Position numbers and translations under genes: made by a program
In this document: piece after piece, positions 18,406-23,895 of the stretch
How the letters are laid out: each line of letters opens with the position of its first letter
Position numbering within the stretch: the stretch's first letter is position 1
Notes under the pieces: generated by a model
What the model saw: only the letters and a program-made list of their open reading frames with translations
Database searches by the model: none
What the model was told of the DNA's origin: nothing
DNA from: Theionarchaea archaeon
GTDB taxonomy: Archaea > Methanobacteriota_B > Thermococci > Methanofastidiosales > SZ-28-30
Direction of reading: 5' to 3'
Assembly (NCBI GenBank): GCA_018992685.1
Contig: JACVGT010000031.1
Coordinates: forward strand, 1-64,000
DNA: 64,000 nucleotides

Positions 18406-19263
18406 TCATTTCTGATCCAGATTCCGTATTCTCGTCCAGATGGTCTTGAGGATTTCCGCAAATTCACTGTCCAGTTCAGTCAAGGTCAATCCTTTGTCCA
18501 TGGCCTGTGGTATCCTGGTATCGTAAGGTAGCCTGCCCACAATTGGGATTCTCTTCTGGTGACACCAGGTTTCAATTTCCTGCGCTAGTTCTGTACACAG
18601 GTCACACTTGTTAATGAGGACACAACAGGCAATTGAAAAATGCTTGAGGACCCCATAGATTCTCTCAAGATCATACATTCCGGATCGAGTGGGTTCACTG
18701 ACAAGCACCGCCAGAGAGGTCCCCACAAGAGATGCAATGACAGGGCACCCGATCCCGGGAGAACCATCCACCAATATGAGGTCTTTCCCAGCCTCCTCAG
18801 CAACAGAAAAAGCCACCTCTCGAACCCTGGTTACCAGTTTGCCAGAGGCCTCCTCCCCTGTGAAGAGTTCAGCATGCACCAGAGGCCCGAATCGAGTGGT
18901 GGATACAAAGACCTCCCCAGTCATTCTCTCTTCCAGAGTGAGAGCGTTGACAGGGCACACCAGCGTGCAGGCTCCACACCCTTCACATTTCTCCTTGATA
19001 ACTGCCATTGACCCGTCTATACTGTTAAACCTGCAGACTTTCTGACATTCTCCACAGAATGTGCACAATTCCTCATGTTTTACGGCTAGTTTTGAACCAA
19101 TGAATGATTCTTTCCTTTCCACGGTAGGATCCAGCAAGAGGGGCAAATCAGAGGCGTCTACATCACAGTCTGCGAGCGCGGCATTACACAGGCTGGCAAA
19201 GGCAACTGTAAGTGTCGTCTTTCCTGTTCCCCCTTTCCCGGATATGACTGTTATCTCCTTCAT
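18406..19263 (-). CDS. MinD-family ATPase with inserted 2[4Fe-4S] ferredoxin domain (second copy)
   Basis: A 285-residue P-loop ATPase. The deviant Walker A is GKGGTGKTT at residues 10-18. Inserted at about 60-110 is a bacterial-type ferredoxin with two CxxCxxCxxxC motifs (CTFCGECQKVC and CEGCGACTLVCP). The switch region LVDGSPGIGCPV is typical of this family. Related pairs occur beside NifX-like proteins in anaerobes, including the ORP complex of Desulfovibrio. The ATG overlaps the stop of the upstream paralogue (ATGA), so both are made together and may form a heterodimer. Last gene of the operon. Confidence 0.9.
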   Translation of the reverse strand: MKEITVISGKGGTGKTTLTVAFASLCNAALADCDVDASDLPLLLDPTVERKESFIGSKLAVKHEELCTFCGECQKVCRFNSIDGSMAVIKEKCEGCGACTLVCPVNALTLEERMTGEVFVSTTRFGPLVHAELFTGEEASGKLVTRVREVAFSVAEEAGKDLILVDGSPGIGCPVIASLVGTSLAVLVSEPTRSGMYDLERIYGVLKHFSIACCVLINKCDLCTELAQEIETWCHQKRIPIVGRLPYDTRIPQAMDKGLTLTELDSEFAEILKTIWTRIRNLDQK

Positions 19264-20090
19264 ATAGCATCACCGATTTTCTGGTAGAGAGTCTGAAACT
19301 CCCTTTTCCAGGACGGTATTTCCTTGATGAAGGGTATGCCCTGAGCACACAGTTCTGCTATGGCTCTTTCATGGGGGATTTTCATGAGGACGGGGACGTG
19401 TTCCCGTGAACAGTATTCCTCAATAGGGGCACACCCCATGCCCCACTTGTTGATAAGCACACCACAGGGAACATCCAGTACCCGTGTCAGGGTCACTGCC
19501 ATCTTGAGATCATGCAGTCCAAAGGGAGTAGGCTCTGTCACCAGGAGGCAGAAATCACAGTCAGACACTGTTTCTATGACAGGACATCCGGTTCCAGGAG
19601 GAGCATCCAGGATTACTTTTCTGGAGGTGTCAATAATCTCGGTTACGGCCCGTATCACAGGTGTCGCCAGGGGTTCTCCTACGTTGAGGACACCTCTGAC
19701 AAACTCCATGGAGGCAAAGGACCCCCGCTCTAGAGTTCCAATAGCCCTTTTCCGCTCTGAGATAGCATCTTTGGGGCAGACGAGAGTGCAGCCGCCACAT
19801 CCGTGACAGAGCTGAGAAAACACTGCGCTCTTCTGAGGAAAGATAGCCAGAGCATTGAACTGGCAAAAGTCAGCGCACGCCCCACACAAAGTGCACTTCT
19901 CTATGGCTATATACGGTACAGGAATTGTCACATCTCCCACGTGTTCAAGAGGGAGTCGCAGGTATACGTTGCAGTCAGGTTCCTCCACATCGCAGTCTAC
20001 GAGCTGTACGTTCTCCAGGGACAGGGCCAGATTCACAGACACAGTGGTTTTTCCCGTTCCTCCCTTCCCGGATGCCACGGCGATCTTCAT
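19260..20090 (-). CDS. MinD-family ATPase with inserted 2[4Fe-4S] ferredoxin domain (first copy)
   Basis: A 276-residue paralogue of the next gene. Walker A is GKGGTGKTT (residues 8-16); the ferredoxin insert has CTLCGACADFC and CHGCGGCTLVCP; the ATPase switch is DAPPGTGCPV. ATP-driven iron-sulfur cluster or protein-positioning functions are proposed for the family. The ATG at 20090 has a GGTGAT site and lies inside the 3' end of a small interrupted frame (20087-20296), again by an ATGA overlap. Confidence 0.9.
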   Translation of the reverse strand: MKIAVASGKGGTGKTTVSVNLALSLENVQLVDCDVEEPDCNVYLRLPLEHVGDVTIPVPYIAIEKCTLCGACADFCQFNALAIFPQKSAVFSQLCHGCGGCTLVCPKDAISERKRAIGTLERGSFASMEFVRGVLNVGEPLATPVIRAVTEIIDTSRKVILDAPPGTGCPVIETVSDCDFCLLVTEPTPFGLHDLKMAVTLTRVLDVPCGVLINKWGMGCAPIEEYCSREHVPVLMKIPHERAIAELCAQGIPFIKEIPSWKREFQTLYQKIGDAI

Positions 20091-20296
20091 GAGGTATCAC
20101 CTGTTACTGTGCCTCCTTGCAGCACAAATGTTGGTTTGCTTCCTGTGTGGAGTGCGTGCTCTCTGATGGACGATCCCGCATTCCCTGTAGGAATAATGGA
20201 TGGAGCAATCTCTGCGATATCGAGACTCTTACTGGCGCAGCTATGGCTGGAATTATCAGGGTCATAGTATCACACATAAGAGGAAAAAGTGGCCAT
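20087..20296 (-). CDS. Small ORF with an in-frame TGA between DUF5320 and MinD genes
   Basis: The frame begins with ATG at 20296 inside the stop of the DUF5320 gene (TGATG overlap) and ends in a TGA overlapping the MinD start (ATGA overlap). It spans exactly 70 codons. Codon 9 is TGA (20272-20270), so as written only MATFSSYV would be made. After it the frame is open and protein-like (SLDIAEIAPSIIPTGNAGSS, then PTFVLQGGTVTGDTS). Both junctions are the kind used by genuine genes in this operon. It may be a gene with a nonsense mutation, a read-through case, or chance. Confidence 0.35.
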
Positions 20297-20637
20297 CACG
20301 GTTCTTGCTTGAGCTCTCTCATGCGAGCCTCGACTGCTTCCAGCTCTTTCTTGATGTTGGCAGCTACCTGTTCCAGATAGGCGATCTCTTCTGTTGGGTC
20401 AATCTGGGAAGATGCGTACATGGAAGCAGGATAACTGGGAATATGGTAGGGAGGTACAACGTGGCGTGGCATGAAATCAGCTCTCCAAACCCTGCGACAT
20501 CCTCTTCCTCCTCCCCAGAATCCGTGCCCAGGCCAGGCATTGGCAAATCCGGGGACACGATATCCGGCACAGTAACCTGCAGCTCTTCCTGTTCTGGGAC
20601 CCTCTCCTGAGGGTCCAATTCCGTCTCCTCTTGGCAT
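20296..20637 (-). CDS. DUF5320-like small protein
   Basis: A 113-residue protein with a Gly/Arg/aromatic-rich N-terminal half (MPRGDGIGPSGEGPRTGRAA, then GFWGGGRGCRR) and a C-terminal coiled-coil helix (DPTEEIAYLEQVAANIKKEL). This layout, beginning MPxGDGTGPxGxGPxTGR, is characteristic of DUF5320 proteins, which regularly accompany NifX-like and Mrp/MinD genes. Function is unknown. The ATG has an AGGAGGTGAT site, better than the upstream starts of the longer frame. Confidence 0.82.
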   Translation of the reverse strand: MPRGDGIGPSGEGPRTGRAAGYCAGYRVPGFANAWPGHGFWGGGRGCRRVWRADFMPRHVVPPYHIPSYPASMYASSQIDPTEEIAYLEQVAANIKKELEAVEARMRELKQEP

Positions 20638-20641
20638 GACA

Positions 20642-21010
20642 TCACCTCCTTTCGTGTCTGTGCATTTTGCAGGCAGTCTCTTCTGTTGCTTCCTGGAGGA
20701 TTCCTTCATTGAATAGATCAATGGCATCATGGACTGTGCCTGTAGCCCCCGCAAAGACTCTGATCCCGTAGGACTCGAACATGCGAACTGCTCTGGGCCC
20801 CAGTCCGGAGCACAGCATGACGTCCACGTGATTTCGAGCCAGTTCTTCGGGAGGCTTTCCAGACCCCCCCATGTGTTCACTGGTATTCTCTAAAACCTGC
20901 ACGAGTTTTGTGGCTGTGTCATACACGGTGAAAGTGGGAGCTCTTCCGAAATGTGGGCTCACCTCTTCTGCCAGTCCCTTCTTTCCCATGGTAGGTACTC
21001 CAATTCTCAT
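20642..21010 (-). CDS. NifX/NifB-type dinitrogenase iron-molybdenum cofactor domain protein (copy 2)
   Basis: A 122-residue protein of the NifX/NafY/MTH1175 family (MRIGVPTMGKKGLAEEVSPH, FGRAPTF, DVMLCSGLGPRAV). In nitrogen fixers such domains carry metal-cofactor precursors; orphan versions in anaerobes include the Mo/Cu orange protein ORP. No nitrogenase genes are visible here, so a general metal or Fe-S cluster carrier is more likely. It starts at ATG 21010 after a GGTGAT site. It is the same length as its upstream paralogue. Confidence 0.85.
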   Translation of the reverse strand: MRIGVPTMGKKGLAEEVSPHFGRAPTFTVYDTATKLVQVLENTSEHMGGSGKPPEELARNHVDVMLCSGLGPRAVRMFESYGIRVFAGATGTVHDAIDLFNEGILQEATEETACKMHRHERR

Positions 21011-21014
21011 GGTA

Positions 21015-21383
21015 TCACCCACTGGACTGCCCGCTGCCCTTGGGCACATTAGATTCAGACAATTCCGGCAGTTCTGCGTTCTTGAATTGAGTTATGACAT
21101 CTGAAATGACCCCGCTCCCGTTGTAGATTTTCATTCCAGCGTATTTCAGAGCACTAAATGCATTGGGGCCAAAGTTGTTCCCGATTACAGCATCCACTTC
21201 TTCATTGCTCACAATTTGAGAAGCCTGCACACCTGCACCTTTTCCAGCCCGTTCTCCCAGGTTGGGAACTGTATGAAAGTCCATGGTGTCAGTATCTACA
21301 ATCAAGAAGTATCTGCATCGTCCAAAACGGGGATCAACTGCAGCTTCCAGAGTTTGATCAGTAGCGGAAATAGCTATTTTAAT
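21015..21383 (-). CDS. NifX-type cofactor-binding protein (copy 1) with apparent ATT start
   Basis: The family N-terminus K-I-A-I-S-A-T is encoded directly after the Mrp stop, and the only codon available in front of it is ATT at 21383-21381, preceded by the in-frame TAG of mrp. A GGTGAT site sits two bases before the stop, correctly spaced for ATT. From there 122 residues run through DPRFGRCRYFLIVDTDTMDF, GAGVQASQIVSN and NFGPNAFSALKYAGMKIY, all typical of the family. Starting at the internal ATG would remove the first strand and the FGR motif. Confidence 0.8.
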   Translation of the reverse strand: MKIAISATDQTLEAAVDPRFGRCRYFLIVDTDTMDFHTVPNLGERAGKGAGVQASQIVSNEEVDAVIGNNFGPNAFSALKYAGMKIYNGSGVISDVITQFKNAELPELSESNVPKGSGQSSG

Positions 21384-22214
21384 CTAATCACCTTCTTTTC
21401 TGGTGTTTTCTTCCACCTGTTTCTCAATGGTGCTCACAACATCACCAAAAGCCTGAGACAGAGAGGTGTTACAGAGCACGAAAGGTGTCCCTTCATCACC
21501 ACTCTCTGCTATCGCGGTGTCAAGAGGTATCTTTCCCAGGAAGGAGACATTCATGTCTGATGCAGCTCTTTCTCCTCCTCCTGATCCAAAGACGTCCACA
21601 TCCTTTCCACAGTGCGGGCATTGGAAGCCGCTCATGTTTTCAACAATACCCAAGACAGGCATGTTCAGAATTCTGGCAAAGGTAATGGACTTTCTCACAG
21701 AGAGCAAAGCCACGTCCTGGGGAGTGGTAACGATTATGACTCCATCAACGTCTGGAATCAACTGGGCAATACTCAGGGGCTCGTCCCCTGTTCCCGGGGG
21801 GAGGTCAATAATCAAGTAATCCAGTTCTCCCCACTGCACCTGCCCCAGAAAATCCTTTACTGCTTTCATCTTTGCAGGGCCCCTCCATATGACAGGCGAG
21901 TCTGTGCTGGGCAGCAAGAAGGCCATGGACATGACTTTTACCCGCGGAGGAACAAGAATGGGAATGATTCCTTCCTTGGATAGTTCAGGTGCAGCAGCTG
22001 TAATGCCCAGCAGTTTGGGGATGGAAGGCCCGTGAATGTCACAATCCAGCAATCCTACTGCCTTCCCTCTCACAGAAAGACACAATGCCAGATTGGCTGC
22101 TACTGTACTCTTCCCGACTCCGCCCTTTCCACTCATTACCAGTATGACAAGCTGGACAGCTTTCAAGTTGTCCTCTATCTCTCTGTCAACAGGGAGGATC
22201 TTGCCTGTATTCAT
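21384..22214 (-). CDS. Mrp/NBP35 family iron-sulfur carrier ATPase
   Basis: A 276-residue P-loop ATPase of the ApbC/Nbp35 group. Walker A is GKGGVGKS (residues 29-36), the switch is DLPPGTGDEPLS and a CxxC (QCPHCGKD) near residue 207 holds a bridging 4Fe-4S cluster in dimers. Known role: transfer of Fe-S clusters to target proteins. The ATG lies in an ATGA overlap with the UPF0251 gene and its stop abuts the NifX gene, so it is within a tightly packed operon. Confidence 0.92.
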   Translation of the reverse strand: MNTGKILPVDREIEDNLKAVQLVILVMSGKGGVGKSTVAANLALCLSVRGKAVGLLDCDIHGPSIPKLLGITAAAPELSKEGIIPILVPPRVKVMSMAFLLPSTDSPVIWRGPAKMKAVKDFLGQVQWGELDYLIIDLPPGTGDEPLSIAQLIPDVDGVIIVTTPQDVALLSVRKSITFARILNMPVLGIVENMSGFQCPHCGKDVDVFGSGGGERAASDMNVSFLGKIPLDTAIAESGDEGTPFVLCNTSLSQAFGDVVSTIEKQVEENTRKEGD

Positions 22215-22696
22215 GGGGTATCACCTCCCTGGTGAGGCCCCCTCTGATTTCTGCATTTGGGACCTCCCGGCCCTCGTCTGCATCCTCTGTCTTCTGGAGC
22301 TCTGTGAAAATTCTCAGAGCCGCATTCAGGGCAGGCAGGTGGTCTTCCTGTTCCGTACGGGAGTTCCCATTCTTGACCGCAATCATAACATCTGAATTTT
22401 CTTTGTCTCAAAACATAATCACCTCCTCCTATGCGGAGGGCTTTACCCAGGACCACGGCTTCTGCGATTTTCTTGTGTGCCTCTTTCAGCATTCTGTGGA
22501 GTGTAGGCTGCGAAATGCCCATGACTGCAGCAGCCTCTGTCTGCTCTTTCCCCTCCAGGTCCACCAGCCGAATGGCTTCCAGCTCATCTACCTGAAGTGC
22601 TATCTCTTCCAGAACCGTCAGTCCTACTCCTCGAGGTTTGAAGTAGGCACAGTGTGGGCCTGATTGGACTCTTCTACATCGCCGTGGTCTTGGCAT
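22211..22696 (-). CDS. UPF0251 (DUF134) HTH regulator with zinc ribbon
   Basis: A 161-residue protein. Residues 1-95 form the DUF134 domain (MPRPRRCRRV start, VDELEAIRLVDLEGKEQTEA, then the helix-turn-helix MGISQPTLHRMLKEAHKKIA). A C-terminal zinc ribbon follows, with CYDC and CPEC pairs, then a Gly/Pro/Arg-rich tail. The family is usually encoded beside Mrp and NifX-like genes and is presumed to control them. It is the first gene of the operon, and a perfect palindrome lies four bases before its ATG. Confidence 0.88.
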   Translation of the reverse strand: MPRPRRCRRVQSGPHCAYFKPRGVGLTVLEEIALQVDELEAIRLVDLEGKEQTEAAAVMGISQPTLHRMLKEAHKKIAEAVVLGKALRIGGGDYVLRQRKFRCYDCGQEWELPYGTGRPPACPECGSENFHRAPEDRGCRRGPGGPKCRNQRGPHQGGDTP

Positions 22697-22699
22697 GTT

Positions 22700-22726
22700 A
22701 TGAATATATATTCATTACTTATAAAG
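22700..22726 (-). promoter_or_regulatory. Promoter and 16-bp palindromic operator of the UPF0251-Mrp-NifX-MinD operon
   Basis: ATGAATATATATTCAT (22700-22715) is a perfect palindrome. On the minus strand it follows the TATA box (ctttataag, 22718-22726) and ends four bases before the ATG. A dimeric HTH protein bound here would cover the transcription start. The first gene encodes such a protein, so autoregulation is likely. Confidence 0.65.
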
Positions 22727-23352: not shown

Positions 23353-23895
23353 ATGCAAGCCCAAGTACACAAAGAAGATGATTCTAGTTATAGATCGGGA
23401 AAAGGATATTCCTTATCCGAAGTTGAAAAGAGCGGGATACGTGTCTCTCAAGTGAGAAAACTGGGGATATATGTAGACCCTCGCAGGCGGACTCTTCATG
23501 AATTCAATGTTCAGCAACTAATAGCATTAGTAGAAGAAAGGCAGAACCAGCTGAGAGAGGAAGCTGAGAAAGCACGCAGAGAAGAAGTAGAAATGAAAGA
23601 AGAAAAGGAATCCAGGAAGAAGGCCAAGAAAGAAGGAGAGAAAAAGAAGGAGAAAAGGGCAGAGAAGAAGAAGATCGAAAAGAAGGTAGAAGTCAAGAAA
23701 GAGAAAGCTCCTGAAGGTCCTCTTGATCTCACTGAAATAAAAGGTGTCGGGAAAAAGAGGGCAGAAACATTTCTCAAAGCAGGAATTCAGACTGTAGAAG
23801 ACCTGATTGCTGCTGACACTGGAGAACTGGCGGAAAAGACCCAGTTCACAGAGGATTACATCGAAACACTCAAAGAGAGGGCCAAGGAACTATGA
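23353..23895 (+). CDS. rpl13e: Ribosomal protein eL13-like with C-terminal helix-hairpin-helix domain
   Basis: A 180-residue protein. The N-terminal part (GKGYSLSEVEKSGI, RKLGIYVDPRRRT, HEFNVQQLIALVEE) matches archaeal eL13 of the large ribosomal subunit. A very charged Lys/Glu segment (about 70-118) links it to a helix-hairpin-helix domain (DLTEIKGVGKKRAETFLKAG). Such a fused domain is not part of standard eL13 and could add RNA or DNA binding. TATA (ctatataaa, about 23323-23332) and AGGAGGTG sites precede ATG 23353. The stop overlaps the HD gene (ATGA). Confidence 0.82.
   Translation: MQAQVHKEDDSSYRSGKGYSLSEVEKSGIRVSQVRKLGIYVDPRRRTLHEFNVQQLIALVEERQNQLREEAEKARREEVEMKEEKESRKKAKKEGEKKKEKRAEKKKIEKKVEVKKEKAPEGPLDLTEIKGVGKKRAETFLKAGIQTVEDLIAADTGELAEKTQFTEDYIETLKERAKEL

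Follow-up and report, generated by a model that had tools for sequence, protein, structure and literature searches.

A seven-gene ORP-like operon of a Theionarchaea archaeon, probably for iron-sulfur cluster handling, and the predicted operator of its putative UPF0251 regulator

A 64,000-nucleotide stretch of Theionarchaea archaeon DNA (contig JACVGT010000031.1, positions 1 to 64,000; the window) carries on its minus strand, from 22696 to 18406, an operon of seven genes encoding a UPF0251 (DUF134) DNA-binding protein, an Mrp ATPase, two NifX-family proteins, a DUF5320 protein and two MinD-like ATPases, MinDA and MinDB. The operon very probably handles iron-sulfur (Fe-S) clusters. In its full form the explanation that we favour, and consider probable, is an archaeal split-gene, ORP-like Fe-S module whose UPF0251 protein binds the palindrome ATGAATATATATTCAT and represses its own operon. 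The new element is a predicted UPF0251 operator palindrome, apparently common to archaea and bacteria, with a code relating one protein residue to the bases of the half-site. The features established by computation are the genes present, the conserved module with its gene fusions, the operator, and the code that links UPF0251 to it.

All seven open frames were intact and each protein scored above its Pfam cut-off, in agreement with the seven genes named for this segment in an earlier note. UPF0251 comes first (22211–22696; PF02001, 95.5 bits). It is followed by the Mrp/NBP35 Fe-S carrier ATPase (21384–22214; PF10609, 330.7 bits), which has the P-loop of this family and its CXXC motif (CPHC, in FQCPHCGKD) and is without the NifX domain of MrpORP. 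NifX1 (21015–21383; PF02579, 75.6 bits), NifX2 (20642–21010; PF02579, 77.1 bits) and DUF5320 (20296–20640; PF17253, 87.0 bits) come next. The last two genes are MinDA (19260–20090; identified by Pfam, alignment and structural model) and MinDB (18406–19263; identified by Pfam, alignment and tree), both CbiA/ParA P-loop proteins in which Pfam detected an inserted double [4Fe-4S] ferredoxin.

UPF0251 has a helix-turn-helix (HTH) resembling sigma region 4, with a recognition helix starting at Q63 (SQPTLHR), and a C-terminal zinc ribbon. In the AlphaFold model the HTH helices spanned residues 36–47, 52–59 and 63–83, Q63 opening the third, and the HTH matched DNA-bound sigmaE region 4 and DeoR domains with low overall significance. 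The predicted operator ATGAATATATATTCAT is a 16-bp perfect palindrome at 22700–22715 (-19 to -4 relative to the start codon of UPF0251). It lies between that codon and the TATA box of the operon promoter (TTTATAAG, 22718–22725, minus strand), which stands just upstream of it. The palindrome core TGARYATATRYTCA matched the window genome (3.03 Mb, 91% complete) exactly once, at this site. In 1.63 Mb of module loci it had 16 exact sites where a Markov model expects none, and these nearly always stood ahead of a gene belonging to the module neighbourhood, such as UPF0251, Mrp or NifX1. Where UPF0251 was unlinked, near-matching sites still preceded the NifX-MinD operon (L045, L047, L049), and in L213 an exact site stood ahead of an unlinked Mrp. 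In Desulfobacterota with UPF0251-NifX fusions the palindrome overlapped the predicted -10 element, as for a repressor site. UPF0251/DUF134 appears to be a repressor of the module and is a predicted autorepressor.

Three loci of Thorarchaeota carried two tandem TGAAT-N4-ATTCA sites 23–24 bp apart where the NifX-MinD operon begins (L102, 7062/7085; L144, 3387/3410; L100, 2723/2747). Methanohalophilus and Methanosarcina loci L281 and L282 had a UPF0251 of the HQST type with exact TGCAT-N4-ATGCA sites, followed by DUF5320-like genes and apart from the MinD operon. Eight other exact palindromes in relatives were set aside as background; six lay inside open frames, one overlapped the beginning of a frame for a pilin-like protein, and one came before a gene for a secreted-like protein. 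No paper on the function of DUF134 or DUF5320, or on a DUF134 binding site, was found in a literature search that left most subscription journals outside its scope.

Comparison of UPF0251 proteins with their upstream regions paired the helix SQxT with TGAAT-N4-ATTCA, SRxT with TGAGC-N4-GCTCA, and HQST with TGCAT-N4-ATGCA. As judged from these sequences, the first recognition-helix residue predicts the half-site, Gln going with TGAAT or TGCAT and Arg with TGAGC; Gln-A and Arg-G contacts are usual protein-DNA chemistry. After the code had been spotted in a first set, it was put to the test with 104 additional non-redundant UPF0251 genes, drawn from 247 Desulfobacterota genomes, from 36 genomes of the named loci described below, and from relatives. 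With up to two mismatches, A- or C-type sites were found for 8/8 genes of the Gln class and G-type sites for 35/42 of the Arg class (p = 1.2e-5). With at most one mismatch, agreement was full across the 27 sites (6 and 21; p = 3e-6), and also for Desulfobacterota alone (3 and 21; p = 5e-4). In both sets together, 43/43 confident sites agreed with the code, and shuffled upstream regions almost never gave class-matched sites. A tree built without the helix columns had three residue switches and three site switches, and the number of independent events is therefore small. L293, L328 and L340 had a UPF0251 helix ending in TFCR and different upstream palindromes (TGAAATATATTTCA, TGAAATTATTTTCA), perhaps a fourth specificity class.

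Gene order was compared across anaerobes; the earlier note had suggested this for anaerobic archaea. Alignment searches with MinDA gave 80 named loci, 79 of them scorable; because the loci were picked by MinDA similarity alone, the partner genes are an independent observation. They came from Methanosarcina, Methanohalophilus, Altiarchaeota, Bathyarchaeota, Heimdallarchaeota and Thorarchaeota and, among bacteria, from Dehalococcoidia, Bipolaricaulota, Omnitrophota, Desulfobacterota, Clostridia and further groups. Within 6 kb of MinDA the neighbours were MinDB (75 loci), NifX (73), DUF5320 (38), Mrp (33), UPF0251 (29), NifU (26), metallo-beta-lactamase (MBL) fold proteins (21), radical SAM proteins (18), DUF364 (11), Fur (9), sigma54 activators (7) and DtxR (6), all of these counts being lower bounds because many contigs were short. 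The gene combination of the window operon is not due to chance, since 73 of the 79 independent loci had NifX no more than 6 kb from the MinD pair. NifU is an Fe-S scaffold and Mrp an Fe-S carrier; Fur, DtxR and DUF364 (heavy-metal chelation) are metal-linked. Closer to the window genome, 13 genomes from its order had MinDA matches with 41–59% identity, and matches of about 30–36% came from a same-class family of small closed genomes, presumably Thermococcaceae to judge from its IssA-like proteins.

Gene fusions joined the same partners. Mrp-NifX fusions were counted 16 times, NifU-Mrp-NifX twice, UPF0251-NifX four times and NifX-DUF5320 four times, with examples confirmed by Pfam. In the triple fusions (L199, 8629–10326; L200, 8574–10277) a single chain of about 566 amino acids (aa) comprises the Fe-S scaffold, the carrier and a NifX domain. 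The UPF0251-NifX fusions, three in bacteria (L198, 12722–13480; L201, 12746–13501; L208, 12629–13423) and one in an archaeal relative (L051, 4072–4758), are candidates for a one-protein regulator that responds to a metal cluster. In two relatives of the same order a gene of the CO dehydrogenase (Prismane/CODH) family stood right after the MinD pair (L044, 5134–7143; L048, 4511–6565).

The MinD models TIGR01969 and TIGR01968 gave at best 60.8 bits for MinDA and 40.1 bits for MinDB, against a cut-off of 201.75; on these NCBIfam scores, far under the cut-off, the two ATPases are not MinD proper. A cysteine was present at position D+7 of the Walker B/switch II segment in 103/116 MinDA and 98/115 MinDB sequences, which is the spacing of the NifH cluster ligand Cys132. 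The shared cysteine suggests an intersubunit cluster between MinDA and MinDB. The MinDA model (predicted local distance difference test score 83.6) had as its closest structural match the Fe-S carrier ApbC (Z 23.0), with BchL/NifH at 21.6 and MinD at about 21, values that do not separate the options. The C-terminal hydrophobic moments were high (rank 3 of 266 sequence windows in MinDA and 2 of 275 in MinDB), and the Mrp control ranked similarly; amphipathic C-terminal helices were dropped as evidence for that reason. In a tree of 222 sequences, clades A (support 0.99) and B (0.97) each contained archaeal, bacterial and MrpORP-linked members, and the window MinDB grouped with L198, L201, L204 and L208 (0.865).

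The earlier note had likened the operon to the ORP complex of Desulfovibrio. The comparison was made with MrpORP-bearing Desulfobacterota, a set without a named Desulfovibrio locus. An MrpORP protein exceeded the NCBIfam cut-off in 50/297 Desulfobacterota genomes, and in the surroundings of 20 of these MrpORP genes the MinD pair, NifX, DUF5320 and NifU recurred, with a sigma54 activator in most. The likeness holds for the module: both systems have two MinD-type ATPases, each of which bears two [4Fe-4S] ferredoxin motifs (Orp3 and Orp4; MinDA and MinDB in the window), a single-domain NifX/ORP protein (Orp8; two copies in the window), and an Mrp carrier in the same cluster. It does not extend to the Mrp gene or to the control of transcription. 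Mrp is fused to NifX in MrpORP, whereas these are separate genes in the window, where Mrp reached 365 bits with the MrpORP model NF041136 (cut-off 450), over positions 2–257 of 365. The ORP genes form two divergent operons with a sigma54 promoter and an activator, whereas the window has a single operon with UPF0251 first; no sigma54 activator was found among its genes or the adjacent genes tested, and upstream stand the TATA box and the palindrome. DUF5320 is a further member in the window, although DUF5320 and UPF0251 also occur in some bacterial MrpORP loci. The replacement of sigma54 control by UPF0251, mentioned earlier for the archaeal operon, is correct here; it is no archaeal peculiarity, as in three MrpORP-bearing Desulfobacterota loci (L198, L201, L208) a UPF0251-NifX fusion takes the place of the sigma54 activator. 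By its gene sequences, the window operon is a split-gene cousin of ORP clusters, because the MinDA and MinDB clades include MrpORP-linked pairs; it was not filed as an ORP operon because fused MrpORP and sigma54 control are both absent.

Likenesses to other metal-cluster systems were also found. IssA of Pyrococcus furiosus stores thioferrate and rebuilds ferredoxin clusters (PMC5524996). The NifX domain has the IssA fold, NifX1 ends in a GRGMG tail in the f2 relatives, and the Thermococcaceae-like genomes had IssA-like NifX proteins with Gly/Arg tails no farther than about 7 kb from the MinD pair. In the window, by contrast, neither NifX protein (122 aa; isoelectric point, pI, 4.8 for NifX1 and 6.3 for NifX2) has a cationic Gly-rich C-terminal tail, and a Gly/Arg-rich basic segment is found on the separate DUF5320 protein (residues 1–62, the N-terminal half, pI 11.2), whose C-terminal part is acidic and, by composition, likely helical. 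DUF5320 may be a detached version of the IssA-type tail. NifX1 matched the D. gigas ORP structure 2WFB (E 4e-13), and the solved relatives of NifX2 were 1RDU, 1T3V and 2WFB (E 4e-8 for 2WFB). With the Mrp/NBP35/ApbC and NifH/BchL ATPases, MinDA and MinDB share the deviant Walker A P-loop fold and the D+7 switch II cysteine; they differ in the ferredoxin insertion, in being two diverged paralogues and in having no nitrogenase-like partner in the genome. CooC is likewise a MinD-type metallochaperone, and a few relatives have CODH family genes next to the MinD pair. CooC lacks the ferredoxin insertion, however, and the window operon has no CODH gene.

From these data we infer the Fe-S function, the MinDA-MinDB heterodimer, the repression and the nature of the signal as follows. 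The operon proteins would bind, transport and load clusters of the iron-sulfur or a related metal-sulfide kind. Mrp would be the carrier that depends on ATP, the two NifX proteins would be small proteins that bind clusters, and DUF5320 would be a basic Gly/Arg-rich partner, like a detached IssA tail. A MinDA-MinDB heterodimer with four ferredoxin clusters would act as an ATP-driven reductase or delivery device. UPF0251 would bind ATGAATATATATTCAT between the TATA box and the start codon and so repress its own operon. The signal to which UPF0251 responds would probably be the state of clusters or metals, and NifX might pass it on, given the UPF0251-NifX fusions of some relatives. For MrpORP, transfer of Fe-S clusters to Orp3 and Orp4 has been observed in vitro (PMC6345978).

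The module is best read as serving general Fe-S or metal-sulfide traffic because of the gene fusions with NifU and Mrp, the IssA-like NifX proteins and a genome in which no NifDKEN-like gene and no further NifX-domain gene were found; cell division, a single client enzyme and nitrogenase are weaker. According to the published ORP hypothesis, the MinD-like pair would be a true cell-division or positioning system that NifX and Mrp merely mature. The MinD fold agrees with this, as do reports that the Orp proteins are 'putatively involved in cell division' and that MrpORP is polar in Desulfovibrio (PMC6345978), and the high C-terminal hydrophobic moments, which were reported for Orp3 and Orp4 also. 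However, the scores of MinDA and MinDB fall far below the MinD cut-off, the similar rank of Mrp makes the moment test weak, the structural matches do not separate the options, and the recurrent neighbours are genes for Fe-S scaffolds, metal regulators and metal chelation. The cell-division link mentioned in the earlier note therefore found no support in these data, and we regard this explanation as quite unlikely. Maturation of one metalloenzyme, such as CO dehydrogenase (with CooC-like ATPases) or hydrogenase, is unlikely. CooC is a Ni-inserting MinD-type ATPase (PMC9164220), and CODH family genes directly follow MinDB in L044 and L048, with one also in L077; yet CooS was near the MinD pair in only 1/79 named loci, and the adjoining enzymes vary by lineage while NifX, DUF5320, Mrp and NifU recur. 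No gene for such an enzyme lies in or beside the window operon, the rest of the genome not having been searched for CODH or hydrogenase.

Assembly of nitrogenase or of another FeMo-co-like cofactor is suggested by the annotation of NifX-family genes. The earlier note had named nitrogenase or hydrogenase assembly genes elsewhere as a possible explanation of the operon; in the 91%-complete genome, a search that did not include hydrogenase genes found no PF00148 (NifDKEN-like) gene and no PF02579 gene beyond the operon. Without another NifX gene or a nitrogenase-like gene, a nitrogenase role is extremely improbable. As to the palindrome, it could belong to another factor, such as DtxR or Fur, and precede UPF0251 only by chance. 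DtxR and Fur genes recur in the module and the L213 site lies between DtxR and Mrp, but most sites are at the promoter of UPF0251 itself, the half-site follows the UPF0251 recognition-helix residue in 43/43 cases, and the switch numbers match on the UPF0251 tree; we hold this very unlikely.

Several observations weigh against a UPF0251-controlled Fe-S module as the favoured explanation. A genome of the same genus (G001, 88% complete) was without the MinD pair and UPF0251, so the module is either dispensable or was overlooked there. G006, a genome in which no UPF0251 of the SQxT type was found, has an exact A-type palindrome (L213, position 1501) off the main operon, between divergent DtxR and Mrp genes. 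Only 24/59 class-typical UPF0251 genes of the test set had a site (at most one mismatch) upstream of their own start, so either not all members regulate themselves or the sites drift. With up to two mismatches, 7/42 Arg-class genes of the test set had A- or C-type sites. UPF0251 of Thermococcaceae (SRGTVWR type) had no operator of the ATGAATATATATTCAT type.

In the layout of the operon, overlapping starts and stops, as described before, were confirmed at the UPF0251/Mrp and MinDA/MinDB joints (4 bp, ATGA); the other joints measured 0–5 bp, with the exception of a 205-bp gap between DUF5320 and MinDA. A non-coding RNA in this gap was rejected, as the gap had no Rfam match and its fold was not unusual (z = -0.7). 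DUF5320 had been taken for a small interrupted gene and proved to be a single intact frame of 114 aa. The conserved N-terminus of NifX1 contains no ATG, GTG or TTG. Its probable start is the ATT at 21383, right behind the Mrp TAG, because the GGTGAT motif and 3-nt spacing are the same as for NifX2 and DUF5320. At 21381–21386 the ATT abuts the TAG with normal ribosome-site spacing, which indicates a rare start codon or a base error. Sigma70-type promoters from the promoter scan were disregarded as not applicable to archaea. A ribosomal protein L13e-like gene, with a Lys/Glu-rich linker and a helix-hairpin-helix domain, lies at 23353–23895, 660 bp from the operon start.

This gene cluster occurs widely among anaerobic archaea and bacteria, and most studies of it have dealt with Desulfovibrio. 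The findings favour iron-sulfur traffic over cell division as its core role. A DUF134 regulator with a predicted, sequence-readable operator and code would be the first testable function for this domain of unknown function, and would reduce what the ORP-like module senses and does to binding and reporter assays. More tentatively, it is possible that UPF0251/DUF134 is a hitherto uncharacterised regulator family of Fe-S metabolism in anaerobes, with one operator design in archaea and bacteria and NifX as its cluster sensor; if so, the state of an Fe-S or metal-sulfide cluster bound to NifX would directly set the expression of the whole ORP-like module.

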